Virus record (IMG/VR): IMGVR_UViG_3300036760_000785
Span: 1-50,267 of that record
Strand: one strand, 5' to 3'
From: a virus
DNA: 50,267 bases
This document shows, one piece after another, positions 10,911 through 50,267 of the stretch (positions are counted from its first letter, which is position 1; every line of letters starts with the position of its first letter). Made by a program: the position numbers and the translations under genes. The notes under the pieces are model-generated. The model was not told where the DNA came from and ran no database searches. It was given only the letters and a program-made list of their open reading frames with translations.

Positions 10911-11222
10911 GTGAAAAATATGAGAATACCACCTAAACCGTTTAAGCCAGGAGAGGGAGGTCGACCTAAGGGTTCTAAAAATAAGTTTACCTCTCTAAAA
11001 GATAAATTTATTCTTGCATTTGAAAAAACGGGCGACGTAAAAGGATTAGTTGATTGGATTAAAAAAAATCCCAAAAATAGGGCGGCTTTTTATCAGATGA
11101 TTACTAAACTTTTCCCTGTTGATATAGCTCATAGTGGCGAAATAAAAACTACTGTAACCTTTATCATGCCTCGACCAGGCAAGAAAAAAGATGCAGACGC
11201 GACTACAGAACATAATTTATGA
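10911..11222 (+). CDS. Terminase small subunit candidate (AT-hook-like N-terminus)
   Basis: A 103-residue protein (100 if ATG 10920 is used). FKPGEGGRPKGSKNKFTSLK is the GRPKGSKNK type of AT-hook-like motif found at the N-terminus of DUF5681 and several phage small terminase proteins. A helical region follows. Position directly upstream of, and overlapping, the large terminase gene supports a role in recognising the packaging site. It is shorter than usual small terminases (about 150 residues) and lacks an obvious separate HTH, so the call is by context. Confidence 0.6.
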   Translation: MKNMRIPPKPFKPGEGGRPKGSKNKFTSLKDKFILAFEKTGDVKGLVDWIKKNPKNRAAFYQMITKLFPVDIAHSGEIKTTVTFIMPRPGKKKDADATTEHNL

Positions 11223-12645
11223 GGCGCAGCCAAAACAGGCATTATTTCATGCTGCACCCGAGACCTATAAACTCTACGGCGGTTCAATGGGAAGTGGCAA
11301 GTCGTTCGCTTTGTGTGCTGAGGGCATTGCCCTTTCATGCGACTATCCTGGCAATCGGGGTTATATTTGCCGCGATACCCTGAAGGCTTTTAAGAAAACA
11401 ACTTATTTGGTTTTGGATGATATGCTCCAACGATCAGGGCTCATTACAAAACACCACCAGACTGATAACTATTACATACTCCAGAACGGATCGGCAATCT
11501 ACTACGGAGGATTAGGTGATGATCAGAAGGCGATTGAGCGGCTGAAGTCAATGGAGCTTGGATGGTTTGCAATAGACGAGGCGTCGGAGACTACGGAAAG
11601 ATTTTTCCTCATGCTTGCTTCGCGCTTGAGAATAAAATTGCCAGATATAAGATACTTTGGCCTACTTGCCTCGAATCCTGATCCTGGCTGGCTGAAGCAT
11701 CGGTTCATAGACAGGAAAGAGCCTGATCATGTTTTCATCCCAGCTTTACCTCGGGACAATGGCAAACTTGCTCCTGGGTATATAGAGAGACTTGAGGCGA
11801 TATTCCCGGATGCCTGGCGGAAGCAATTCTTGGAGGGTGACTGGACAGCCTTCGAAGGTATAAATAATGTCTTCCCATTCCAGGCGATTTCAAAGGCGAT
11901 GCAGAATGAGATTGAACCAGGGAAGCCCAGAGAGTTAGGAATAGATGTGGCTCGATATGGGGATGATGAATTTGTCATCGTGCTTAGGGAAGGTGGCAAG
12001 GTATCAATACGTAGGAGGATAAAGAAATCGGACTTGATGGAAGCGACGGGGATAGTTGTCCAGGAAATAAAAGACCTCAATCCTGATGGAGTAAAGGTGG
12101 ATGCCGATGGTTTAGGGTCTGGTGTTGTTGACCGTTTAGGGGAAGTTATGCCTTGTGAATGGTTATTGAAAGTTGGTATAACAGAAATACATGCTGGGGT
12201 AAGGGCCAATGATTCCGAGAGGTTCAGGAATAGGAAGGCTGAGATTTACTGGGGGTTCCGAGAACGATTAATTGCGGGCGAGGTATCATTGCCCGATGAC
12301 CTTGACCTTCAGGCGCAGTTGACATCAATAACTTATAAAGTAAACTCGACAGGGCAGATAGAGATTATTTCCAAGGAAGAGATGAAAAGGAACGGATTAA
12401 AAAGTCCGGACATTGCAGAAGCTGTAATCTATGCTTTTACGGAGCCGGACCAACCTGTGCGTACTGGCCAGATCTGGTTCCCAGGCAAGGAAAGGATTGT
12501 CGAAAGAATAAAAAGAAAAGAGGAGAAGGAATCACAGTCAAGCGAGTCGATTCCTGTATTGGTTCCCAGGGAAACCGTCATAGAGGAGCCGAAGGATAAG
12601 AAAGATGCTGGACGAGGAAAAGGAAAAACAAGGGTCTTCATCTAA
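11191..12645 (+). CDS. terL: Terminase large subunit
   Basis: A 484-residue protein with Walker A GGSMGSGKS (30-38), Walker B WFAIDEAS (Asp near 129), and the RNase H-like nuclease beginning LGIDVARYGDDEF (Asp near 252) with VDADGLGSG and SPDIAEA further on. It is the DNA translocating motor and cuts concatemers during packaging. Length is normal for the family. It overlaps the small subunit candidate by 32 nt and the portal gene by 41 nt. The packaging mode (cos or headful) cannot be read from the sequence. Confidence 0.95.
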   Translation: MQTRLQNIIYEAQPKQALFHAAPETYKLYGGSMGSGKSFALCAEGIALSCDYPGNRGYICRDTLKAFKKTTYLVLDDMLQRSGLITKHHQTDNYYILQNGSAIYYGGLGDDQKAIERLKSMELGWFAIDEASETTERFFLMLASRLRIKLPDIRYFGLLASNPDPGWLKHRFIDRKEPDHVFIPALPRDNGKLAPGYIERLEAIFPDAWRKQFLEGDWTAFEGINNVFPFQAISKAMQNEIEPGKPRELGIDVARYGDDEFVIVLREGGKVSIRRRIKKSDLMEATGIVVQEIKDLNPDGVKVDADGLGSGVVDRLGEVMPCEWLLKVGITEIHAGVRANDSERFRNRKAEIYWGFRERLIAGEVSLPDDLDLQAQLTSITYKVNSTGQIEIISKEEMKRNGLKSPDIAEAVIYAFTEPDQPVRTGQIWFPGKERIVERIKRKEEKESQSSESIPVLVPRETVIEEPKDKKDAGRGKGKTRVFI

Positions 12646-14098
12646 AGGTGTAAAGCGGGTCTTCTATTTCATCAAGACAAGCAGGGGTCTTGTGCCGCTT
12701 AATGAGTTGAGGAAGGCCGAGAAGAGAAAGCAACAGACTGAGTCAAAGCAAATCAAGGCCGAGAAGGAGTTTATTACCCTTCATAATCTTATACCCTACC
12801 CATTTAATGTGCAGGGTTTTCTTCTGCTCCTTGAGAATTGCTCATTCTTCGATGCCTGTGTGCGCCAGATTGCAAAGGATGTGGCTGGCCAGGGTTACAC
12901 TATTAACTTGCGCAAAGGAATCGAGACCGAGAATGATGATGAAAGAAAAGCAATTGAGGATTTCCTATCTGATCCAAATGCTGACGAGGATAGCCTGGAA
13001 GACATCATTGAGCGTCTGATAATTGACTGGGGTTGCATCGGGTGGTTCGGCCTGGAGGTAAGCAGGGATGAGGTAAACAAGGTCAATGGTCTATATCATA
13101 TTCCTGCGCATACGTTCTGGATACACAAGGAAGAGAAGAAATATTGCCAACTATGGATGAATAAGACTATCTGGTTCAAAAAATTTGGCTATGAAGCAGA
13201 TATAGATGCAAAATCGGGCGATGAGTCAAAACCAGTAAGTCCAGAAAATCTTGCCCACGAGTTGATCTACTACCGCAATTACTATCCTCGATCCGCCTTC
13301 TATGGTGCTCCCAATGCCCTCTCCGCCGTCGGAGCCATTAAGGCTTTGATTAGCATCCGTGATTATAACCTGGCATTCTTTGAGAACTATGGGATCCCAG
13401 CTGCGCTAGTCACAGCAGAGGGAGACTGGGGAGAGGATGAGTCTGGTATAAGCAATGTGAAACTCCTCAATGATTTCATAAACTCAGAACTCAAAGGTGC
13501 AGATAATGCACACAAGACAGTCGTACTAAATCCGCCAGCAGGAGGGAAGGTCACCTGGACGCCACTCGTGGTTGAAGTCAAAGAGGGCCATTTCAAACTC
13601 TATTTCAAGAATCTGAGAGATGAGATACTTGTTGCCTACAAGATGCCTTCGTACAGAATCGGTATAACTGAGCAGGGTAGCCTCGGAGGATCGACGGCGG
13701 CGGAGTCCACGCGTATTTATATTGACTCGATTGTCAATCCACTCAAACGGGTGATTAACCATATCTTCTCGGAGAAGATAATCAAGGACGGCTTAGGAAT
13801 TGAGTCTTATGAGTTTAAACTTGGGGAGCTTGACATCCGCGACATGAATGCGATTGTTACTCGTTGCCAAACACTGTTTGGCATGGGTGGCCTGAGCAGG
13901 AACGAGTTAAGGCAAGAGATTGGCAAATCAAAGCTGCCCGATACCGAGGATGGGGACAAATACTATATCTCGACTTCCTATGTGCCGATAGGTGAGGAAA
14001 GTGCACTGGCTTCATTGAGTGCCAGGGATGCAGCGGCCGAGGATTTGAAGAAGAAGGTGGATGAGATTCTGAAGGGAATGAGGAGTAAAGGGAAATAG
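12605..14098 (+). CDS. Portal protein
   Basis: A 497-residue protein. The core reads FFDACVRQIAKDVAGQGYTI, then GCIGWFGLEV, YGAPNALSA, MPSYRIGITEQGSLGGSTA and VNPLKRVINHI, which is the order of HK97/SPP1-type phage portals. It forms the dodecameric ring through which DNA enters and leaves the capsid. The basic N-terminus (about 1-60) and a Lys-rich C-terminus are likely flexible. The next gene, encoding the MuF protein, starts immediately after the stop, as usual. Confidence 0.92.
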   Translation: MLDEEKEKQGSSSKGVKRVFYFIKTSRGLVPLNELRKAEKRKQQTESKQIKAEKEFITLHNLIPYPFNVQGFLLLLENCSFFDACVRQIAKDVAGQGYTINLRKGIETENDDERKAIEDFLSDPNADEDSLEDIIERLIIDWGCIGWFGLEVSRDEVNKVNGLYHIPAHTFWIHKEEKKYCQLWMNKTIWFKKFGYEADIDAKSGDESKPVSPENLAHELIYYRNYYPRSAFYGAPNALSAVGAIKALISIRDYNLAFFENYGIPAALVTAEGDWGEDESGISNVKLLNDFINSELKGADNAHKTVVLNPPAGGKVTWTPLVVEVKEGHFKLYFKNLRDEILVAYKMPSYRIGITEQGSLGGSTAAESTRIYIDSIVNPLKRVINHIFSEKIIKDGLGIESYEFKLGELDIRDMNAIVTRCQTLFGMGGLSRNELRQEIGKSKLPDTEDGDKYYISTSYVPIGEESALASLSARDAAAEDLKKKVDEILKGMRSKGK

Positions 14099-15535
14099 AT
14101 GAGCATAGAACTTCTTGAACTCCACAAGGCACTGACTACTTACCTGCATAAAGGCAAGCGTAGGGAACGGGCACTTCTACGGCATAAGCGGCTCTTGAAG
14201 GAGACAAGACCGGCAATGGCCGCCGCCGCGATGAAGTGGCTTGAGATGATGAGGCGAGAGATAATGGCGACACTGTTGCACTCAAGAGGTAACAATGCAA
14301 CTGAACTATTAAACAAAGTAGATTGGGAAATGCTCAAGGAGAAGAGTGCGAACATCTTCAAGCCAGTCTATCTGAAGATTTTGAATGAAGGCGTGCGTAG
14401 CATCTTTGCCTTGAGAAAACAAGAAGATGAGATGGATGAGATATCGGAGGAGGCAATTACCTGGGCCCGAAGTCAATCTGCGAGACTCGTCACCGAGATA
14501 GATGCAAATACCAGAAAAGGACTAAGGCAGTTGATCGAAGAAGGTTTGGCAAGTGAGGAAGGTTTATCAGTACAGGAACTCGCAAGGCAGATAAGATCGA
14601 TGATCGGATTGACGGATAGGATGACAATGGCGGTATCAAACTACCAAGCAGAACTTCTTGCACGAGGGATGGCTGCCGAGGATGTCGAAAGGGCCGTCGA
14701 GAAATATGAAAGGCAGCTCCTAGCCTACCGTGCCGAGATGATTGCTAGGACAGAGACAGCGGAGGCATTGTCTGAAGGTACAAGGCGGGCTTATAAAGTG
14801 AATGGTATTAAGGAACTTGAGTGGGTTGCCGATCCTCAATGCTGTGCGGAATGTTCAGAGAATAATGGCAAAACATATTCTGTAGATGAAGCAGAGGGGA
14901 TGCAACCTGCCCATCCGAATTGTTTACCGGAGGATTCTTTTATATTGGCCTGTGGAGGAATCTCTTCCGTTAGTAAAAGGTGGTACGAAGGAGAAATGAT
15001 TATCCTTGAGACAGCCTCTCACCGCAAACTCTCCTGCACCCCAAATCATCCGATACTCACAGATCGGGGATTCTTGCCTGCGAACTTGTTGAATATAGGT
15101 AGCAATGTAATCAGCCACGGATTCAGTCAAAGAGAAATTTTTGGAGATTGGAATAATTATTATAGACCAACCTTGATTGAGAATATAACGAATTCTTTCC
15201 TCAAATCTTCTGGCGTGGTCACCAATAAAATGCCAACCTCCTCCATAGATTTCCACAGCGACGGGATAGGCAGCAAGGTCGCAATTATAGGCACCAATCG
15301 CTTTTTAAAGATTCTTAATCGTAGTCATAGGAAGATCGATTCGAAGAAATTCCCCGAGGATATTTCTTTTTCTTGGTTTCACGACAAGGTCATTCATTTT
15401 GATACCTCATTTTTCCGAGGGTATGTCCATAATTTAGAGACAGAGAAATCATATTATATTGCTAATGGGATTGTCAACCATAATTGCGAATGCTGTTTTG
15501 TAATGGCGGTCGGCGAGGAGATGCCGGAGGAATGA
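14099..15535 (+). CDS. MuF/SPP1 gp7-like minor head protein interrupted by an intein
   Basis: A 478-residue precursor. Residues 1-274 are helical and contain the MuF signature ERQLLAYRAEMIARTETAEA, then WVADPQCCAECSENNGK and AHPN. Residues 275-462 are an intein. Residues 463-478 complete the family's HPNCxC motif (CECCFVM). Splicing would yield a 290-residue protein, normal for the family. MuF proteins bind the portal inside the head and can be ejected. C-terminal additions on MuF proteins are often polymorphic toxins, but here almost nothing follows the intein. The gene abuts the portal gene. Confidence 0.88.
   Translation: MSIELLELHKALTTYLHKGKRRERALLRHKRLLKETRPAMAAAAMKWLEMMRREIMATLLHSRGNNATELLNKVDWEMLKEKSANIFKPVYLKILNEGVRSIFALRKQEDEMDEISEEAITWARSQSARLVTEIDANTRKGLRQLIEEGLASEEGLSVQELARQIRSMIGLTDRMTMAVSNYQAELLARGMAAEDVERAVEKYERQLLAYRAEMIARTETAEALSEGTRRAYKVNGIKELEWVADPQCCAECSENNGKTYSVDEAEGMQPAHPNCLPEDSFILACGGISSVSKRWYEGEMIILETASHRKLSCTPNHPILTDRGFLPANLLNIGSNVISHGFSQREIFGDWNNYYRPTLIENITNSFLKSSGVVTNKMPTSSIDFHSDGIGSKVAIIGTNRFLKILNRSHRKIDSKKFPEDISFSWFHDKVIHFDTSFFRGYVHNLETEKSYYIANGIVNHNCECCFVMAVGEEMPEE
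14921..15484 (+). other. Mini-intein (188 residues, no homing endonuclease)
   Basis: It begins with Cys (CLPEDSFILA, block A), has TPNHPILTDRGFLPANLL (block B with the TxxH motif), and ends VHNLETEKSYYIANG then IVNHN (blocks F and G: His then terminal Asn), followed by Cys as the first extein residue. All residues needed for splicing are present. The central 85 or so residues show no LAGLIDADG or HNH motif. The insertion splits HPN from CEC, the predicted metal-binding loop of the MuF domain. Confidence 0.9.
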
Positions 15536-16202: not shown

Positions 16203-18266
16203 ATGAAACGAATCATTATTATTGTAACTCTTTCAGTTCTATTACTTATCTCTCTCTCTGCCAATCCCGGGACGACTTATTATGTGGATGCAACAGGTGG
16301 CAATGATAGCAATAGCGGTCTAACCGAAGCCCTAGCCTGGAAGACTATCGCCAAGGTCAACGCTTCGTCTTTTTCTGCTGGCGACTCCATTTTCTTCAAG
16401 CGGGGCGAGACGTGGCGGGAAACATTAACCGTGCCATCGTCTGGCTCGTCTGGCAGTCCGATTACTTTTGGCACATACGGGACGGGGGAGAAGCCGAGAA
16501 TTTTAGGTTCTAATTTAATGACAGGGTGGGCTGCTTATGAAGGGTCTGGTGCAAGTACATGGACTGCGACAGAGCAAACGGGTGTATCGGCTATTGATGA
16601 TACAGACAGTGGTTTCCTAAATATCAGAAATCTCGTTAAAGCAACCTCAATATCCATAAGTGGGACTCAAGTTAGATTAATATTAACTCCTCATAGTGCT
16701 ACTACATTTGCTATAGAGGGGCTAACGATTGGACCAAGAAGTGGAACCACTGACGATTTTTCTGCTGCACCTACTCCATTACTCTATGAGGGTCTTGCTG
16801 TATCAGCAACTAATCCTATAATTTTAACAGGTGGGGGATCAGATGTTTTAACAGATTGGACTACTTTTACCCTTGATGAGACAGCAGATTATTTGATTCA
16901 TATTTGGCAAGATGATGATATTAGTGTGCCTGTCAAGGCTTGGAAACCTGATCCTGGCCCTACTAATATGTATTATAGTTATTCTTCAACAGACTTTTCT
17001 CAGACGCAAACCTGGAGCGGAACTGCATACAGAAGTATATTTTGTGTTAAACAAATTGATGTTAATGCCCCCCCGCCAAATGTGTGGCAAAAAACGGGAG
17101 TAACAACCGCACCTAATGTTGTAATATTTAATGGAACGTGGGGGGAATATGAATCTGGAGGAATTGCGGCGTTAGATGCCAATTATGAATGGTATTGGGC
17201 ATCTAATGTTTTATATGTCTATACTGATGGAGGTGATCCTGATACTCAATGGCCTAACGGAATAGATGTTGGGCAAAGAAACGATGGTGTTGTAATAAAT
17301 ACAAAAAGTTATATTACCATAGAAAATCTTGATATCAGGTATACAAACAGACATGGCATTAATATGACAAACTGTGACTATTTAACTATTCAGGATAGTT
17401 CCATATCTAAAATTGCCAGAATGGGCTTAAGTGGATATGCGATAACTAATTGTACGTTTGATAATATTATTTGGAGTTATGGATCGAAAGGCGTTGGCAT
17501 TTCGGATGGTTCTGATAATAATATAATCCAAAATTGTGATTTTTCGGAAAGCAGAACCACGAAATCAGAAGCGGGGGGCGGAGGGCTAATGTTATATGAT
17601 TCAGATTCTAATATTATTCGTTATAATTATCTCCATGATGCCAAATTAGTTGAAAATGATAGGCAAGGAGATGGAATTTATCTTAATTCTGGCGGCGATT
17701 GTAACAACAATGAGATTTATTACAATGTAATTGTGAGATTCAACGACGGAATAGATATTTATGGTGATGGAAATTCAATTTATAATAATGTTATTGGTAG
17801 CAACCAATATACCGCTATAGCAATTGGCACTGGGGCAAGTAACAATATTATCAAAAATAATATTGTTTATGACGGTATAGTTAACAATTATTTATGGGAT
17901 GGGAATAATCCTGGAAGCCCGGCCGCAAGTAATACCATTGATTACAATTGTTATTATGACCCTGATAATCCCGATCCAGATGGCGATCCTTTTATTGATT
18001 GGAATGCTACGGGAGAAGCCTGGGGAACTATGAATTGGAATCAATGGATAGCTCATGGAAAATATGATCAACACTCTATTTACGCAGACCCCAAATTTAC
18101 CGACCCCGCCACCGGTGACTTCACCCCCCGGCCCACCTCCCCCTGCATCAATGCCGGAACGAATGTCGGCCTGACAAGGGATTATGAGGGGAAGCCTATA
18201 TTCCATGCTCCAGATATCGGGGCTTATGAGGATCAGACGAATGCTTTATTTATATCTATCTATTAG
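16203..18266 (+). CDS. Secreted right-handed beta-helix protein (pectate-lyase-like fold)
   Basis: A 687-residue protein with a clear signal peptide (KRIIIIVTLSVLLLISLSANP). TTYYVDATGGNDSNSGLTE is the typical opening of polysaccharide-lyase-like beta-helix proteins. Residues about 380-600 are rich in N-I-I, N-x-I and Y-N repeats (parallel beta-helix rungs), and INAGTN with DYEGKP near the end is a common closing motif. Such proteins bind or cleave polysaccharides. Catalytic residues cannot be assigned. The codon use becomes AT-rich in the centre. It sits between head genes, so it is probably accessory cargo acquired by transfer. Confidence 0.75.
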   Translation: MKRIIIIVTLSVLLLISLSANPGTTYYVDATGGNDSNSGLTEALAWKTIAKVNASSFSAGDSIFFKRGETWRETLTVPSSGSSGSPITFGTYGTGEKPRILGSNLMTGWAAYEGSGASTWTATEQTGVSAIDDTDSGFLNIRNLVKATSISISGTQVRLILTPHSATTFAIEGLTIGPRSGTTDDFSAAPTPLLYEGLAVSATNPIILTGGGSDVLTDWTTFTLDETADYLIHIWQDDDISVPVKAWKPDPGPTNMYYSYSSTDFSQTQTWSGTAYRSIFCVKQIDVNAPPPNVWQKTGVTTAPNVVIFNGTWGEYESGGIAALDANYEWYWASNVLYVYTDGGDPDTQWPNGIDVGQRNDGVVINTKSYITIENLDIRYTNRHGINMTNCDYLTIQDSSISKIARMGLSGYAITNCTFDNIIWSYGSKGVGISDGSDNNIIQNCDFSESRTTKSEAGGGGLMLYDSDSNIIRYNYLHDAKLVENDRQGDGIYLNSGGDCNNNEIYYNVIVRFNDGIDIYGDGNSIYNNVIGSNQYTAIAIGTGASNNIIKNNIVYDGIVNNYLWDGNNPGSPAASNTIDYNCYYDPDNPDPDGDPFIDWNATGEAWGTMNWNQWIAHGKYDQHSIYADPKFTDPATGDFTPRPTSPCINAGTNVGLTRDYEGKPIFHAPDIGAYEDQTNALFISIY

Positions 18267-18524: not shown

Positions 18525-18722
18525 ATGAGGATAGTAAGGCATAGAGTGGTCGGCCTAGAGATTGTCAAACGATGTCCAGACTGTGGAGCTGGGATGTACG
18601 CCAAAAGTGCTTGTTGCGGATTCAAGAAGCAGGGATTCACGAGGATGCTCAAGTGCCTGAATGCGGCCTGCAAGCGCATGGAAGGATACAGAGAGAACCA
18701 AGATGAAGATAGAAGAGATTGA
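18525..18722 (+). CDS. Small zinc-ribbon protein
   Basis: A 65-residue protein with CPDCGAGM near residue 17 and a second Cys cluster (KCLNAACKRM near 47), plus a central CC. This fits a zinc-binding ribbon. The C-terminus overlaps the start of the large polyprotein gene by about 20 nt, which suggests coupled translation. Zinc ribbons at this position may tether or assemble the neighbouring protein, which is inference. Confidence 0.65.
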   Translation: MRIVRHRVVGLEIVKRCPDCGAGMYAKSACCGFKKQGFTRMLKCLNAACKRMEGYRENQDEDRRD

Positions 18723-21700
18723 CAGGGAAAAAATAAAGAAGGAATCCAATGCAGAATTAAGGAATCTGCGGTTCAGACTCATCCAGCTTTATGAAAAGCA
18801 TTTCTCGGGCAATGATGTCCAGGTGGTTGGCACACTAACTAGAGATTTTCTTCTCTCGAAATATATGATACTCAAGAGCGAGATGGATAGAAGGGGAATT
18901 CCTGTTGAGACGGTAACGAACCTTGATCGAGCATGTGAGACAAGGAAGATGAGGAAAGCTATCTGGGGCCTGGATGTGCCAAGTCTGGGCGATATGGTAA
19001 TAGTCGAAAATTATATCTCAATAGGCGGCTCGTTTATCAAGTCCCCGAAGGATGCGAAAGACATCGATATGATAATAAGGGATGAGGCCTCGCACAGAGA
19101 TGAAGGCCTGGAATTGAAACTTGGCAGGTTGATTCATGGAGAGACTGGCAAGGATGCTCATTTTGTTTATGCTCCGAAGGGGCCGCACTCAAGTTTCCTA
19201 CCGATATACGATCTTGTGCTCAGGCCAAAGAGCGAGACGAAAATAACCGAAGTAAAAGAATCACCCATAAAGAAATCTGAAAAAAGTCCAGAAGAATTAT
19301 ACTTCGAGAGATTGGATAAATGGGATGAATCGCTTCAAAAAGATAATGAGGAGGTGATTAGAAATCTGGAGGACGGCTCGGTCTTAGATTTGGGTTGTGG
19401 CACTGGGATATTGATAGCCAAACTAAGAAAAGATCAGGATCGGGTAGTGCAGGGGATAGATAAAAATGACATTGCTATCAGGTACTGCCAGGAGAAAAAA
19501 CTTCCCATTCTGAAGATTGATTTGGAAAAGGAGAGTCTGCCTTTTGATTCAGACCTGTTTGATAATGTGATTAGCGTACATGTCCTTGAACACCTGGAGA
19601 ATCCGAAAAATCTGATCGATGAAGCAACCCGAGTTGCCAAAAAGAAAGTTATTTTCCTAGTACCATTAGGAGCACGTCTCGACCCGACCCATAAACATAT
19701 ATTTGAAAAACTGGAAGACCTAAAAAAACTTTTCAGCGATAAATGGTCGTTCGAAGAAATTCCCGAGAACCGAACTGTTCTGGCCACCTTAGAAACAGGG
19801 ATGGAAATAAAAAAGGCAAAGGAGCTCAGGCCGGATATGATAGGATCCTTTCCCCTTCCTAAACCAACAATGAGGAATCTTACAGAAGCATTTACAGTCG
19901 ATCAAGTATGGCCGTGGTGTGAAAGCAAGGACTTAGAAGTCGAGCCGAAGCTTAATGGTTTTCGCATCTGTCTAGTTGGAAAAGGAGGAAAAGTCAGAAT
20001 TATAACTGATGGGCTGAAGGACAGGACAAAGCACTATCCCGACATAATCACCGCCCTTGAGAAGGTACCAGATGATTTTATTCTGGACTGTAGTATGGGA
20101 ATTGAGAGAGATGGTAAACCCTTGCCTAGAATAAAACTTATGACTTTAATGTCAGACAAACCCGAACTTCAGGAAAATGACAGGATTATCTGCACAGTTT
20201 TCGATTTGCCATATTTCAAAGACGATATTCATTTGAGGCCCTTTGAAGAGAGAAGAAAATTATTAGAGGAATTTTATAACAAATATCTGAAGGGCTCTCC
20301 AAATTTTGATATCACGCAGACTGCTCGGATAAAAACAAAAAGCGAACTTGAGGAATACTTCAAGAAGTTTGGAAAACTGCCTCAGAGTGAAGGCGTTGTA
20401 ATTAAGGATATGAAGGGCATCTGGCCGCTTGATGGCAACTGGGATGACATGGCAAAATTGAAACATGAAGTGGAAATAAAAGTGATAGTATTAGAGCGGC
20501 ATGATGTCAAAGGCGGAGGCTATAACTATACTTGCGGTTTATTATCTGGATCCTCTGGGTATGAGAACCTCGCTGAGTTTCGAGCGCAGAAGTATATTAA
20601 TTTAGGCAAGTGTTTCAATACAAAACTCAAAGCCGAGCCTGGTGATATTCTCACAATGGGAGTTGAGGAAATTATTCCAGATGAAGAGAAAAACGTGCTT
20701 CAATGGCTGGGTGCCCGAGTCATAGATATTGACGATTCCAGAAAAACGCCGTATTTCGCAAACCAGGTTATAGACATAGCTGAAGAAGGCAATATCCTGC
20801 AGAAGGCCGAAGAGGGAAACATAGACTATAAAATTGGGGATAAAGGCAAAGGAGTACTGCAAATTCATATCATGGGTATCGAGGAAGAAAAGATTGATGC
20901 CTTGAAGAAGATATCGAAAGAAGCAGTTGCCTCAAGAAATAATCCCATGAAGTTGAAAATGTTATTTAAGGGTGCTATTGGCCAGCAAGGTGCACATATA
21001 GACATGCGACTTGTGAGATCGGGCGATAAATATTTTGAAGGTGGCGAGATTATGATTGGAAATTTCGACGGCTTGGAGAAGTTGAAAAAACTGGATGAGG
21101 GCGGTAAGTTAAGGTTCGGGTGGAAAGTTGCAAGGAAAGAGGAACCACAGGCTGAGACGATAAGAGGGCCGGTAGATTGGATGGATGCGGGGAAAAATGG
21201 GATAGAGATATTCCCTCCAGGCGAGGCGGGTGCTACCACAAATAAATACGGGGCAATGCTAATTCTCGATGAATTTACTTTTGAAGCTATAGAACCCCAG
21301 GATGACCACGCAAAAAAATTCAATCTCGAAGGCAACAAACTAATTCCTGAAGGTACATACCTTATGGCCTATGTACCGATAACAGAGGCAGGGGAAAAAG
21401 GGCCCAGAGTATGGATGATATCAAAACTCAAGGAGGAGGAGAAGGCGAGGTTCTTCAAGTTTATCAAGATCAATAAGAAACAGCAGATAGTTGGCGGGGT
21501 GATATATGAGCCGATGGTTGAAGATTCGCAAGGTGACTATGCAGATGCTGAAGAAATCCAGAAGGCGATGTATAAGTTTATGGAGAAATATTTCATGAAT
21601 CAAAGCCGAATAAAAATCATGCACAAGGGCAAACTCCATTCGTTCCCTATTCTTGAATGTTTCCAACCAGAGGAAGATACCAAGAAGGGAAAGGATATTA

Positions 21701-21828
21701 TCAAGGCAGGAAGTTGGTGGGTCATGATAAAAATAGCAGATAAGAATATTTGGCAGGAAGTGGAGAAGGGTGTTTTAAAAGGATTTAGTATGGCTGGCGT
21801 TGCATCAGAGGAAAAAGTCTCGGTATGA
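18703..21828 (+). CDS. Five-domain fusion: nucleotidyltransferase, methyltransferase, ligase, LigD-PE-like, XkdF prohead protease
   Basis: A 1,041-residue protein. Residues 95-185: pol-beta-type nucleotidyltransferase (GGSFIKSPKDAKDIDMII; D120 and D122). 205-350: class I SAM methyltransferase (LDLGCGTG near 228; HVLEHLENP). 405-700: ATP-dependent-ligase-like (EPKLNGFR with K416, SEGVVIK with K568, AKLK near 585) plus an OB-like region. 715-905: similar to LigD phosphoesterase (HIDMRL at 765-770, NKYGA, then FNLEGNKL), lacking two of the usual His. 920-1041: XkdF-type phage protease (VGGVIYEPMVEDSQGDYA, RIKIMHKG, GFSMAG). Capsid proteases process scaffold. The other domains could be packaged cargo. 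ATG 18661 is an alternative start. Confidence 0.85.
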   Translation: MKIEEIDREKIKKESNAELRNLRFRLIQLYEKHFSGNDVQVVGTLTRDFLLSKYMILKSEMDRRGIPVETVTNLDRACETRKMRKAIWGLDVPSLGDMVIVENYISIGGSFIKSPKDAKDIDMIIRDEASHRDEGLELKLGRLIHGETGKDAHFVYAPKGPHSSFLPIYDLVLRPKSETKITEVKESPIKKSEKSPEELYFERLDKWDESLQKDNEEVIRNLEDGSVLDLGCGTGILIAKLRKDQDRVVQGIDKNDIAIRYCQEKKLPILKIDLEKESLPFDSDLFDNVISVHVLEHLENPKNLIDEATRVAKKKVIFLVPLGARLDPTHKHIFEKLEDLKKLFSDKWSFEEIPENRTVLATLETGMEIKKAKELRPDMIGSFPLPKPTMRNLTEAFTVDQVWPWCESKDLEVEPKLNGFRICLVGKGGKVRIITDGLKDRTKHYPDIITALEKVPDDFILDCSMGIERDGKPLPRIKLMTLMSDKPELQENDRIICTVFDLPYFKDDIHLRPFEERRKLLEEFYNKYLKGSPNFDITQTARIKTKSELEEYFKKFGKLPQSEGVVIKDMKGIWPLDGNWDDMAKLKHEVEIKVIVLERHDVKGGGYNYTCGLLSGSSGYENLAEFRAQKYINLGKCFNTKLKAEPGDILTMGVEEIIPDEEKNVLQWLGARVIDIDDSRKTPYFANQVIDIAEEGNILQKAEEGNIDYKIGDKGKGVLQIHIMGIEEEKIDALKKISKEAVASRNNPMKLKMLFKGAIGQQGAHIDMRLVRSGDKYFEGGEIMIGNFDGLEKLKKLDEGGKLRFGWKVARKEEPQAETIRGPVDWMDAGKNGIEIFPPGEAGATTNKYGAMLILDEFTFEAIEPQDDHAKKFNLEGNKLIPEGTYLMAYVPITEAGEKGPRVWMISKLKEEEKARFFKFIKINKKQQIVGGVIYEPMVEDSQGDYADAEEIQKAMYKFMEKYFMNQSRIKIMHKGKLHSFPILECFQPEEDTKKGKDIIKAGSWWVMIKIADKNIWQEVEKGVLKGFSMAGVASEEKVSV

Positions 21829-22853
21829 AAATGAAGGCAGCAATCCTGGAGAAGTTAAATTCTCCTCTTATCGTTGATGATCTTGAGATTCCGGATTTAG
21901 ATTATGGTCAGGTTTTGGTCAAGGTCTGCCGGTCTGGAATCTGCGGTGCGCAAGTGGATGAGATATCTGGCAGAAAAGGAGAAGATAAATATCTTCCTCA
22001 TCTCCTGGGACATGAAGGCGGGGGAGTTATTGAGGATATCGGCCCAGGGGTGACCCTCGTCAAGAGAGGCGATCACGTGGTCATGCACTGGCGGAGGGGA
22101 GACGGCATCGAATCGAATCCGCCGAAATACAGAAGAAACGATGGATCAATTGTAGGTGCAGGCTGGGTGACGACCTTCAACGAGTATGCAATAGTATCAG
22201 AGAATCGGCTCACACCTATCGATGATGACATCCCTTTTGAGATTGCCGCACTTATGGGTTGTGCTGTGACAACCGCACTTGGGCTAATAAACAATGAGGC
22301 GAAACTGAAGATCGGGCAATCGATTGCCATTATCGGATGTGGCGGAGTCGGGCTAAATATTATTCGTGGGGCGGCAATGGTATCGGCTAATCCTATAATA
22401 TCCATTGATCAGTACCGTCCAAAATTGAGAATGGCAGAGGGGTTAGGAGCAACTCATCTACTCACAAGCGAGTCTCTCCTATGGGATGATACCCAAAGGA
22501 TACGAAATTTCATTGGAAGTAGAGATCTCGATGTAGTTGTGGATTGTGCTGGTTCTTATCGCCTGATTGCAAATATATTTAAATTAATGTCACCAAAAGG
22601 AAAATTGATATTACTGCGGCCCATATCTCAGTTATTGCCGGGATTCGTAGATGGCATAGAGGTGATGAATAGTTCAGGTGGCTATACTAATCCGAATGAA
22701 GATATCCCCCGGTATCTTGACCTTTATCGCAAAGGCAAACTCAGTCTCGATGGTCTGATAACGCATCGCTTTCCTCTTTCTGAGATTAACATTGCACTTG
22801 ATGTAGTCAGAAGTGGGCAGGCAGGGCGAATCATCTTGGAAATTGCAGGTTGA
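21825..22853 (+). CDS. Zinc-dependent alcohol/polyol dehydrogenase (MDR family)
   Basis: A 342-residue protein of the medium-chain dehydrogenase superfamily: RSGICGAQVDE (catalytic zinc Cys), LGHEGGGVIEDIG (His and Glu), and the NAD-binding IIGCGGVGLNIIRGA near 170. The four-cysteine structural zinc lobe of classical alcohol dehydrogenases is absent. It would oxidise or reduce a hydroxyl group of a polyol or sugar. It starts in ATGA overlap with the protease fusion and overlaps the next gene (TGATG), forming a compact three-gene cassette. The substrate is unknown. Confidence 0.88.
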   Translation: MKMKAAILEKLNSPLIVDDLEIPDLDYGQVLVKVCRSGICGAQVDEISGRKGEDKYLPHLLGHEGGGVIEDIGPGVTLVKRGDHVVMHWRRGDGIESNPPKYRRNDGSIVGAGWVTTFNEYAIVSENRLTPIDDDIPFEIAALMGCAVTTALGLINNEAKLKIGQSIAIIGCGGVGLNIIRGAAMVSANPIISIDQYRPKLRMAEGLGATHLLTSESLLWDDTQRIRNFIGSRDLDVVVDCAGSYRLIANIFKLMSPKGKLILLRPISQLLPGFVDGIEVMNSSGGYTNPNEDIPRYLDLYRKGKLSLDGLITHRFPLSEINIALDVVRSGQAGRIILEIAG

Positions 22854-24052
22854 TGAACTCAAGAATCTCAAAGAAAGACCTTATTGATTTTGAAAGACAT
22901 ATTGCCGAACTTTATGATGATGGCCAAATTCCATACCTTGTCCATTTATGCGGGGGGAACGAAGATCAATTAATTGAAATATTTAAAGACATCAAACCCG
23001 ACGATTATGTCTTTTCAACGCATAGAAATACCTATCATTATCTTTTGCATGGCGGGTCACCTGGGACTTTGGAGCAAAAAATCCTTAATGGAAAGAGTAT
23101 GTTTATTTTTGATAGAAAATTAAACTTCTTCAGCCTGTCTATAGTTGCGGCGACCCCAGGTATTGCGGCGGGGACATCCTGGGCCTTGAAAAGAAAAGGA
23201 AGCAAACAAAAAGTCTGGTGTTTTGTGGGTGACGGTACAGAGGATGAAGGGCACTTTTATGAGGCGGTGCGCTATGTCGATGGCTGGAACTTGCCTTGTA
23301 TATTCATAATCGAAGATAATGACAGGAGTGTAAAAGCCACAAAAAAAGACAGATGGAATGAGGGGTCTAATTTTATCTGGAATAAAAAGTGCGTGCGAAA
23401 ATATTGTTATTCTCCCACTTATCCTCACAGTGGAAGTGGAAGCAATAAGTGGGTAAAATTCAAAAGGGAAGCAAAGATTGTTAGGCGTCCCAAAAGAAAG
23501 ACTTCTGATATAGATATTGCCACATCGGTTGAGACATCCATGACATATTTTGACGCCGTTAAAAGTTCGATGGAAATGCTGGCTAAGAATCCATCCACTA
23601 TTTTCGTAGGATACAATGTCAAATACGGGTCTGCATATGGTTCATTAAAGAATATCCCAGAAGACCAAAGGGTTGAGACTCCTGTGGCGGAGAATTTGAT
23701 GGCGGGGTTGGCCCTGGGAATGTCACTAGAAGGATATAGGCCAGTTCTTTTTTTTGAAAGGCATGATTTTATTCTGAATGCCGCTGACCTTATAGTCAAT
23801 ACTTTGGACGTAATAGAGACTATTTCTGATGGTGAATATTCCATGCCAATTGTCATAAAAGCCGTCGTTGGATCAATAAAACCTTTCTATGCTGGGATTA
23901 CGCATTCCCAGGATTTTTCTGATTTGATTAGGGGCTTTGTATCCTTCCCTGTTTACACCCCAATAAATGCAAAGCAAGTGCTGGCTGTCTATGATAAGGC
24001 GAGAACTACCATAGGGCCTATGATGATTAGCGAAAGAAAGGAATTGTATTGA
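22853..24052 (+). CDS. TPP-dependent dehydrogenase/transketolase-like protein (fused alpha and beta parts)
   Basis: A 399-residue protein. The N-terminal half matches the alpha subunit of 2-oxo-acid/acetoin dehydrogenase E1: GDGTEDEGHFYEAV with a DN about 30 residues on is the TPP motif. The second half matches the beta subunit (TYFDAVKSSMEMLAKN, ETPVAENLMAGLALGMS, FFERHDF). The C-terminal transketolase domain of beta subunits is missing, so the protein is a shortened fusion. It probably makes or breaks a C-C bond next to a carbonyl. Overlaps on both sides tie it to the dehydrogenase and the SDR. Confidence 0.8.
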   Translation: MNSRISKKDLIDFERHIAELYDDGQIPYLVHLCGGNEDQLIEIFKDIKPDDYVFSTHRNTYHYLLHGGSPGTLEQKILNGKSMFIFDRKLNFFSLSIVAATPGIAAGTSWALKRKGSKQKVWCFVGDGTEDEGHFYEAVRYVDGWNLPCIFIIEDNDRSVKATKKDRWNEGSNFIWNKKCVRKYCYSPTYPHSGSGSNKWVKFKREAKIVRRPKRKTSDIDIATSVETSMTYFDAVKSSMEMLAKNPSTIFVGYNVKYGSAYGSLKNIPEDQRVETPVAENLMAGLALGMSLEGYRPVLFFERHDFILNAADLIVNTLDVIETISDGEYSMPIVIKAVVGSIKPFYAGITHSQDFSDLIRGFVSFPVYTPINAKQVLAVYDKARTTIGPMMISERKELY

Positions 24053-24765
24053 AATCTGTATTGATAAGTGGCTCTTCAAGCGGACTAGGGAGAAGTCTCG
24101 CTCTTGTCTTTGCTAGGAATGAATTTAATGTCATTCTGCATGGAAGGGATGAGGAAAGGCTGGAATTAGTTAGAAGGATGATTCTAATCAGAAGACAAAT
24201 GTCCAGGAGCGAAATTGAATGTGACGTTATAAGAGGTGATATAACGTCGAAAGATATACTGGACGAGTTATTCAGGGCGGCAGAGAAAAGGAACCTTAAT
24301 ATCCTGATAAATAATGCGGGCATTCACGCTCACAAAAGGTTTCAGGACATGAATGAAGATGAGGTTCAGAATATTATCCAGACCAACCTGATTGCACCAC
24401 TCCAACTGATCCTGAAAATTTATCCTCTATTCGTGAAGAAAAAATCGGGCGTGATAGTAAATATTAACTCTATCGCCGGCAAGTACCCTAATGAGATGGA
24501 GGCGGTCTATTGCGCAAGCAAGTATGGTCTAAGAGGATTTTCTGAGGCATTCCAATATGAGGCAGACAAGGATAATATTCGAATAATCAATATCTATCCA
24601 GGAGCAATGAAAACCCCTATGTCAAAATCAAGAATAAACCATAAAAAACTGATAACACCATCCGAAATGGCAGACTTGGTATATAAGATAGTTCTAGGGG
24701 AAGCTATAGAGGAAAATCGGAGCATGAGAGTGGCTGAAATCGAGCTGAGAAGAAAGAACTTTTGA
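24049..24765 (+). CDS. Short-chain dehydrogenase/reductase
   Basis: A 238-residue SDR with the NAD(P)-binding motif SGSSSGLG (7-14), NNAG near 88, a catalytic Ser in NINSIAGK and YCASK near 154, and PGAMKTPM. All catalytic residues are present. The TTG start overlaps the previous stop by four bases and lies immediately before the first beta strand, so the length is right. With the zinc dehydrogenase and the TPP enzyme it suggests a short pathway acting on a sugar or polyol. Such trios occur in surface-polysaccharide gene clusters of bacteria. Confidence 0.88.
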   Translation: MKSVLISGSSSGLGRSLALVFARNEFNVILHGRDEERLELVRRMILIRRQMSRSEIECDVIRGDITSKDILDELFRAAEKRNLNILINNAGIHAHKRFQDMNEDEVQNIIQTNLIAPLQLILKIYPLFVKKKSGVIVNINSIAGKYPNEMEAVYCASKYGLRGFSEAFQYEADKDNIRIINIYPGAMKTPMSKSRINHKKLITPSEMADLVYKIVLGEAIEENRSMRVAEIELRRKNF

Positions 24766-25785: not shown

Positions 25786-26898
25786 ATGAACAGTTCAAGA
25801 AAGTTGCTAGAGCAACTGAAGATCGAAAAGAGCCACAATCTCATTTCCCTTCCCCAGGTAGAACTGACATTCGAGGAGGCGGATCGTTTCATTGATTACA
25901 TGGTGGATGAATCGGCCATGAAAAAATTCGCCCGCATCGAAAGAATGAGGGGACCGGAAAAACCTATTAGGGCATTGGGTTTTGGAAGCGGACATTTCTT
26001 ATACCCAGCAGGAAACTTCAACGAGTCAAAATATACGAAACAATTCGTTGATGAAAAGATCATGCTGATGACCAAAGAGTGTCGGGGAGCCATCCCGATC
26101 TTCGATAAAGATCTTGAGGATATCCCGCCAACCATGTCCAGTGATGAATACAACAATCAACTCATCAAGATTATTGCCCTGAAAATCCAGAACGAGTTGG
26201 AAGAGGCGGGATGGATTTCTGAGACAGCGGGCCTAAATGGCTTCGCCGATGACGACATTCGGGGACTTTGGGATGGATGGCGATATAGAATTACCCACTC
26301 AGAAGTTGGCCAGCCGTACTATAACAAGGTAACAGGTTCGGCCCATATCCTCAATGCCTGCGAAGGCGGAGAGGCAGGCTCGCCATTTGAATATGATGGC
26401 AAAATTGCGGAAGCGGATGCCGACTATAAACACTGGGAGTTCAAATACGGGAAGATGCTGAAGGCGATGCCATCGAAATACAAGATGGCAAATGGCCTGG
26501 AGAAAATGGCCTTTCTGAATTCTGACTTGGTTACCCAAGACTATTTTGACGCGTTGTCGGCTAGGCCGACCCCTATTGGTGATGGAATCCTTACGGGTAA
26601 TTTGCCAATGGGGTATGGCAAAGTGAAGATCATTGATGTACCCTTGATGCCTGTCAATCTTGGGGATCCTACGGCAGTACCTTCGACTGATGGTATTATC
26701 GGAGAGGGAGAATATACAGACGTCCTTCTGACTCCAAAAGACAATCTCATCGTCGGAATTCAGCGCGATATCAAGATGGAATCCGAAAGAAAAGCGGCGG
26801 ATCAAGCTACCTATATCTTCTACTCGCTCAGGATCGATTTCGCGATTGAGAACGTGGATGCTGTTGTTCTCTTGCGGTGCCTTGAGCACGCTTGCTAG
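25786..26898 (+). CDS. Major capsid protein (HK97 fold)
   Basis: A 370-residue protein with the pattern of phage capsid proteins: an N-terminal arm, IPIFDKDLEDIPPT and then a long helix ending ELEEAGWIS (spine helix), and C-terminal segments on peptide-like strands (GKVKIIDVPLMPV, then ILTGNLPMGYG). It follows the scaffold with AAAAGGAG at its start. In the virion it would form the icosahedral shell. The first 20 or so residues may be a delta-like region removed by the XkdF protease. No covalent cross-link site can be assigned. Confidence 0.88.
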   Translation: MNSSRKLLEQLKIEKSHNLISLPQVELTFEEADRFIDYMVDESAMKKFARIERMRGPEKPIRALGFGSGHFLYPAGNFNESKYTKQFVDEKIMLMTKECRGAIPIFDKDLEDIPPTMSSDEYNNQLIKIIALKIQNELEEAGWISETAGLNGFADDDIRGLWDGWRYRITHSEVGQPYYNKVTGSAHILNACEGGEAGSPFEYDGKIAEADADYKHWEFKYGKMLKAMPSKYKMANGLEKMAFLNSDLVTQDYFDALSARPTPIGDGILTGNLPMGYGKVKIIDVPLMPVNLGDPTAVPSTDGIIGEGEYTDVLLTPKDNLIVGIQRDIKMESERKAADQATYIFYSLRIDFAIENVDAVVLLRCLEHAC

Positions 26899-50106: not shown

Positions 50107-50267
50107 ATGGAAAGTAAAATTCTCGAAGTTATTGACAACCAACGAATAAGACTAACGGAAATTGCTATGAAGGTGCAGGAGATTGTCACGGCCGAGATTC
50201 GGAGGTTGGACGAATTCAAGATCAGCTTGATGAAGACGGACAACAATCGGCCGAAGGTGACCATCGA
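50107..50267 (+). CDS. Small charged protein, 5' part (continues at 1-182)
   Basis: ATG 50107 follows AAGGAGGAATAA. The frame (starts MESKILEVIDNQRIRLTEIA) runs off the right end and continues, after removing the 127-nt overlap, to the stop at 180-182. The full protein is 71 residues. Function unknown. Confidence 0.8.
   Translation, partial: MESKILEVIDNQRIRLTEIAMKVQEIVTAEIRRLDEFKISLMKTDNNRPKVTI
50141..50267. repeat. Terminal direct repeat, right copy
   Basis: Identical to bases 1-127; see the left copy. Removing one copy gives a circular genome of 50,140 bp with an intact reading frame across the join. Confidence 0.95.

Follow-up and report, generated by a model that had tools for sequence, protein, structure and literature searches.

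Why would a prohead protease be made at the end of a chain that also carries a nucleotidyltransferase (NTase), a methyltransferase, a DNA ligase and a phosphoesterase (PE)? The question is raised by a single open frame of 1,041 amino acids (18703..21828; all positions written with two dots are on the + strand) in the window, that is, the whole 50,267-base IMG/VR record analyzed here. Positions 1-127 and 50141-50267 of the window are an identical direct repeat of 127 bp, as would be expected if the genome is complete and its assembly closes into a circle. The frame is preceded by the genes for the terminase large subunit (11191..12645), the portal protein (12605..14098) and the MuF minor head protein (14099..15535), and it is followed by a homologue of the major capsid protein (25786..26898; phrog_1623, E=4e-40), which comes after XkdF in many of the loci described below. 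The polyprotein gene is located inside the virion structural cluster and includes the coding sequence of a virion domain. With an alternative in-frame ATG, at 18661, the protein would be 14 amino acids longer, but the alignment of relatives begins at MKIEEI.

Domain scans confirmed that several unrelated enzymatic domains are present in this one chain. It starts with a helical domain (18703..18966; HMM matches in 14 or more loci, pLDDT of about 90) that is common to the minimal XkdF proteins of related viruses, followed by an NTase that appears to be of the Pol-beta type (19009..19221), a SAM-dependent methyltransferase (19339..19701), an ATP-dependent DNA ligase adenylation domain (19918..20463), a ligase OB-fold region (20464..20808), a domain resembling the PE of LigD (20830..21423) and an XkdF (S78_2) prohead protease (21457..21810; PF14550 at residues 919-1036, E=1e-25) with its conserved Asp, H974 and the Ser of GFS. 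All the motifs listed in an earlier note, made from the sequence alone, were found: D120 and D122 of the NTase, LDLGCGTG (residues 228-235), K416 in KLNG, K568 and AKLK ending at residue 587 of the ligase, as well as HIDMRL (765-770), NKYG and FNLEGNKL (873-880) of the PE. In the AlphaFold model, confidence was high from the N terminus through the NTase, in the ligase and over most of XkdF, whereas it was fair in the core of the PE and low in the methyltransferase region. In fold searches with both full-length models, the match lists were filled by ligases.

For the ligase, Pfam placed PF01068 at residues 406-587 (E=7e-21), and a ligase profile searched against PDB gave matches down to E=3e-31, every one of them named DNA ligase. 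The ligase fold that the earlier note had presupposed was recovered by AlphaFold and VIA-align, residues 356-702 (which include the OB-fold region) superposing on DNA ligases with a Z score of 25.6, an rmsd of 3.4 and 318 aligned residues. Motifs I, IV and V are present and K416 is kept, while the Glu of motif III, which occurs in 96% of the family, is replaced by Ser464, a change that the note had missed and that is shared with the nearest relative of the window protein, L034. The note had instead been wary of an Asn in motif I, but this residue is not unusual, being found in 13 of 75 family members. On the ligase tree, the window protein sits on a long branch.

The PE and NTase gave no Pfam match when the window protein was taken alone and were recognized through the family. 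A PE HMM from which the window protein had been left out matched its residues 822-880 (iE=2e-7), and the family PE profile retrieved the LigD-PE structures 3p43 (9.7e-5) and 3p4h (1.8e-4) as well as, weakly, 3n9b and 2lj6; LigD_N of Pfam matched 11 of 20 family members, with a best value of 5e-7. The family motif has the intact His/His/Asp/Arg set of the LigD 3'-phosphoesterase; the window copy has Ala758 in place of the first His and keeps H765, D767 and R769. Along similar lines, an HMM made from the NTase-ligase-PE proteins of other viruses matched the window protein with E=5.5e-10. Its NTase has GGS, D120, D122 and a third acidic residue, D170, with weak Pfam support across the family (NTP_transf_2 or DNA_pol_B_palm in several members). 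The DxD was kept in 75 of 83 members, its conservation being put at about 93%, and the third acidic residue was present in only about half of them. The methyltransferase (MetW/Methyltransf_11, PF07021/PF08241; residues 213-333, E of about 1e-14) was also found in the sister loci L033 and L034.

The earlier note had proposed that other viruses be searched for the same architecture. We searched viral contigs with the window protein and with ligase-PE, NTase-ligase-PE and PE-only alignments, removing duplicates, and found a recurrent and conserved arrangement. The family ligase or PE was carried by 78 distinct viral loci (two ligase matches, L011 and L012, were ordinary phage ligases and were left out), with NTase, ligase and PE together in 64 of them and the ligase and PE sharing one ORF in 54. 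The ligase and/or PE were fused to XkdF in 22 loci and XkdF was a separate nearby gene, usually the next one, in 12 more; many loci had no detected XkdF, some because the contig ends. XkdF occupied the C terminus in every fusion, and a portal gene was nearby in 52 loci. The order was stereotyped: terminase, portal, MuF, NTase-ligase-PE(-XkdF) and capsid. Within one locus (L079), NTase, ligase, PE and XkdF were four consecutive genes. Among the 64 groups of loci with at least one member retrieved by the PE-only scan, 57 had the ligase and 56 the NTase, so that the co-occurrence is not merely a product of how the loci were retrieved. The best reading of these sequence comparisons is that three parts persistently go together, an NTase apparently of the Pol-beta type, an ATP DNA ligase and a PE like that of LigD, with XkdF probably belonging to the set either as the C-terminal domain or as the following gene. 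Mis-assembly of separate genes was ruled out, because many contigs independently show these modules, either in one ORF or next to each other. The interpretation given in the earlier note was thus supported in part: a LigD-like set is indeed joined to the capsid protease, but ligase and PE look impaired in the window copy.

The PE precedes the ligase in seven lineages, which group together on the tree so that one change accounts for them, and the XkdF-fusion state requires four changes by parsimony on the ligase tree. The minimal XkdF proteins (306-326 aa, L036-L045), in which XkdF is accompanied only by the N-terminal domain and a DxD-less domain resembling the NTase, are possibly an ancestral or reduced form. 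Nearly all records lack any ATP ligase besides that of the family; one locus has two ligase domains in a single ORF (L088:4578-10319), flanking the N-terminal and NTase domains and followed by the PE. In one pair of loci (L006:7080-9689 and L007:2817-6425), the NTase-ligase-PE core is 92% identical and the N-terminal halves are unrelated, a coiled coil in one versus MBL (metallo-beta-lactamase) and ASCH in the other, a sign of recent domain swapping.

When GTDB genomes were scanned, a single locus was recovered, on the same contig as L023 and binned with Ca. Aenigmatarchaeota, and a search by phylum gave one further MAG contig. The assignment of the L023/L125 contig to a Ca. Aenigmatarchaeota MAG suggests that some viruses of the family infect archaea. 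TBP, sought as a marker of archaeal hosts, was detected in two records (ANMV-1 and L096) out of 50.

In order to put this family into perspective, we compared it with known systems. LigD and the split NHEJ ligase and PE proteins of bacteria and archaea likewise combine an ATP ligase, a PE and a polymerase-type domain. The window protein has, like LigD, an ATP-dependent ligase core with OB fold, and the PE motif of its family, H-x-R-G-x-S-x-H-x-D-x-R, parallels H-x-A-R-x-L-H-x-D-x-R of LigD. However, the polyprotein cannot be counted as a LigD, because its nucleotidyl-transfer domain appears to belong with Pol-beta and not with the AEP polymerases (neither Pfam nor NCBIfam scans gave an AEP-type domain), because the first PE His is missing and because Ku was found in none of 50 family records, many of them possibly incomplete, in a search that detected the Bacillus subtilis positive control. 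A Ku might also be supplied by the host. The link to a capsid protease is a further difference. The mycobacteriophages Omega and Corndog are comparable in that a phage contribution to end joining has been proposed for genome circularization (PMC3706429), although they encode Ku, while the viruses studied here encode the ligase, PE and NTase side. Packaging of the Omega/Corndog Ku was suggested, but mass spectrometry did not see it (PMC3706429).

Among annotated viruses, the sole relative with the ligase part in the phage collection was ANMV-1 (KP703175), a virus of an uncultured archaeon, in which NTase, ligase and PE form one gene (AJP62006.1, annotated just as "ATP-dependent DNA ligase") directly after the portal. 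Unlike the window protein, it has no XkdF or methyltransferase fusion and retains the motif III Glu. Associations of XkdF with a DNA methyltransferase annotation were seen in phages that have been cultured (Rhizobium phage RHph_TM16, Lactococcus phages and phrog_1530), where NTase, ligase and PE were not seen.

The closest precedent is provided by the polyvalent proteins that phages and conjugative elements encode (Iyer et al. 2017, PMC5512222). These are large multidomain proteins that bring disparate enzymes together among virion genes, some with a C-terminal capsid-type (assemblin-like) peptidase, and that include Pol-beta NTases, methylases and 2H domains; their injection was inferred there. 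A term search of the main text of that paper returned neither LigD nor XkdF, and the ligases mentioned in it are RNA ligases only. Compared with the proteins it describes, NTase, ligase and PE form a near-constant core in our family instead of one combination among many. Packaging has also been inferred from fusions of enzymes to MuF, portal or a capsid-processing peptidase (PMC9503650). Our searches of the open literature found no earlier account of an NTase-ligase-PE set with XkdF or among head genes, polyvalent proteins being the nearest. Going by domain content, the near-constant NTase-ligase-PE core with XkdF is thus best read as a new form of polyvalent virion protein, one that would be undescribed in the literature searched.

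What could such a protein do? The most economical reading of the arrangement is that the NTase-ligase-PE set would be packaged in the virion. In other phages, XkdF-type proteases work inside the prohead, and therefore a polyprotein fused to one would enter with the protease, the XkdF part acting as its carrier. Proteolysis at maturation could then free the pieces, which would leave the capsid with the DNA at ejection. At damaged or terminal ends of the viral DNA, the PE might trim, the NTase extend or modify and the ligase seal, while the methyltransferases of many members could mark the incoming DNA. Stated broadly, as a virion-borne multidomain lineage of the polyvalent kind that would be packaged by means of its protease and, once ejected, would mark the viral DNA or heal it, this is the account that we somewhat favor. 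A narrower version deserves only tentative consideration: a Ku-independent end-joining kit of NTase, ligase and LigD-type PE, placed in the capsid because it is fused to the maturation protease or packaged along with it, that heals and circularizes the genome, or mends breaks made by host nucleases, at entry, and that is widespread in uncultured head-tailed viruses including archaeal ones.

If the kit is indeed in virions, these viruses would bring DNA-joining enzymes with their genome instead of borrowing those of the host. That would provide a mechanism for genome circularization or for break repair at entry and a means of surviving restriction or CRISPR cuts, and prohead proteases would be able to act as cargo carriers. 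The about 80 distinct loci would, in addition, offer biochemistry a large family of ligase/PE/NTase fusions.

The main rival of a virion-borne kit for DNA ends is RNA repair, which we consider unlikely. Here the delivered kit of NTase, ligase and PE, joined in some relatives by RNase Z-like MBL, ASCH and 2H domains, would mend tRNAs cut by the anticodon nucleases of the host, much as RlaP NTases work with RNA ligases. RlaP NTases do act beside phage RNA ligases (PMC7824862), and among the 31 relatives scanned, MBL was found in 9 and a 2H (2'-5' RNA ligase-type) domain in one; there were also weak matches to ASCH in L007 and L009 and to PF09414 (RNA_ligase) in L009. Nevertheless, both the core of the ligase and its OB fold resemble DNA ligases and not RNA ligases (3e-31; Z of 25), D12-class adenine DNA methyltransferases were found in 14 of the 31 relatives, and the PE resembles that of LigD.

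We also evaluated whether the family shows the marks of working enzymes. Across it, the ligase retains the motif I Lys in 99%, the motif III Glu in 96% and the motif IV EG and motif V Lys in 100% of the members; the H/H/D/R residues of the PE are conserved at 95-100%, and the D/H/S residues of XkdF are invariant in a 45-member alignment. In close pairs, dN/dS was mostly between 0.01 and 0.2. For instance, L006/L007 had values of 0.01 to 0.05 for NTase, ligase and PE and L106/L110 had 0.02 for the ligase, with higher ligase values (0.2 to 0.35) in L070/L080/L082 and L113/L115. The active sites thus vary hardly at all, and dN/dS, in most cases well under 1, points to purifying selection; these data argue for catalysis in the family as a whole. 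They also weigh against the view that the added domains merely decorate a protease or scaffold without catalyzing anything and persist because of their size, folding or DNA binding. We consider this quite unlikely: domains retained for bulk need no intact active sites, and those of the family are 93 to 100% conserved under such low dN/dS. What speaks for it is the loss of the motif III Glu (likewise in L034) and of the first PE His in the window protein and the missing DxD in the NTase-like domain of the minimal XkdF relatives.

The window copy itself is a different case. With Ser464 replacing the motif III Glu and Ala758 replacing the first His of the PE, neither its ligase nor its PE is likely to be fully competent, and full ligation by this copy is unlikely. 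The DxD of the NTase, the motif of the methyltransferase and the catalytic residues of the protease are intact, and these three functions are probably retained. The ligase/PE part, if used at all, might serve for binding DNA ends or nicks and not for full sealing.

A last alternative is that the kit is produced at a late stage of infection for replication or packaging-associated repair, the XkdF fusion being mere translational coupling. This would agree with the near absence of other ATP ligases from these records, but it is made improbable by the position in the head operon, where divergent lineages have the kit between portal/MuF and capsid, and by the fusion to a protease, a component that acts inside the prohead.

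Several other features of the head-gene region were observed. The MuF gene contains a mini-intein of 188 residues (14921-15484) at the site HPN/C...VNHN/CECC; the Pfam Intein_splicing match was below the cut-off, and L001 and L002 have an uninterrupted HPNCEC at this site. Between MuF and the protease polyprotein (16203-18266), there is a right-handed beta-helix protein with an N terminus resembling a signal peptide. Between the protease and capsid genes (21825-24765) lie three genes of metabolic type, for a zinc alcohol dehydrogenase, an E1/transketolase-like protein and a short-chain dehydrogenase, the second of which matches phrog_34187 with E=2e-152.
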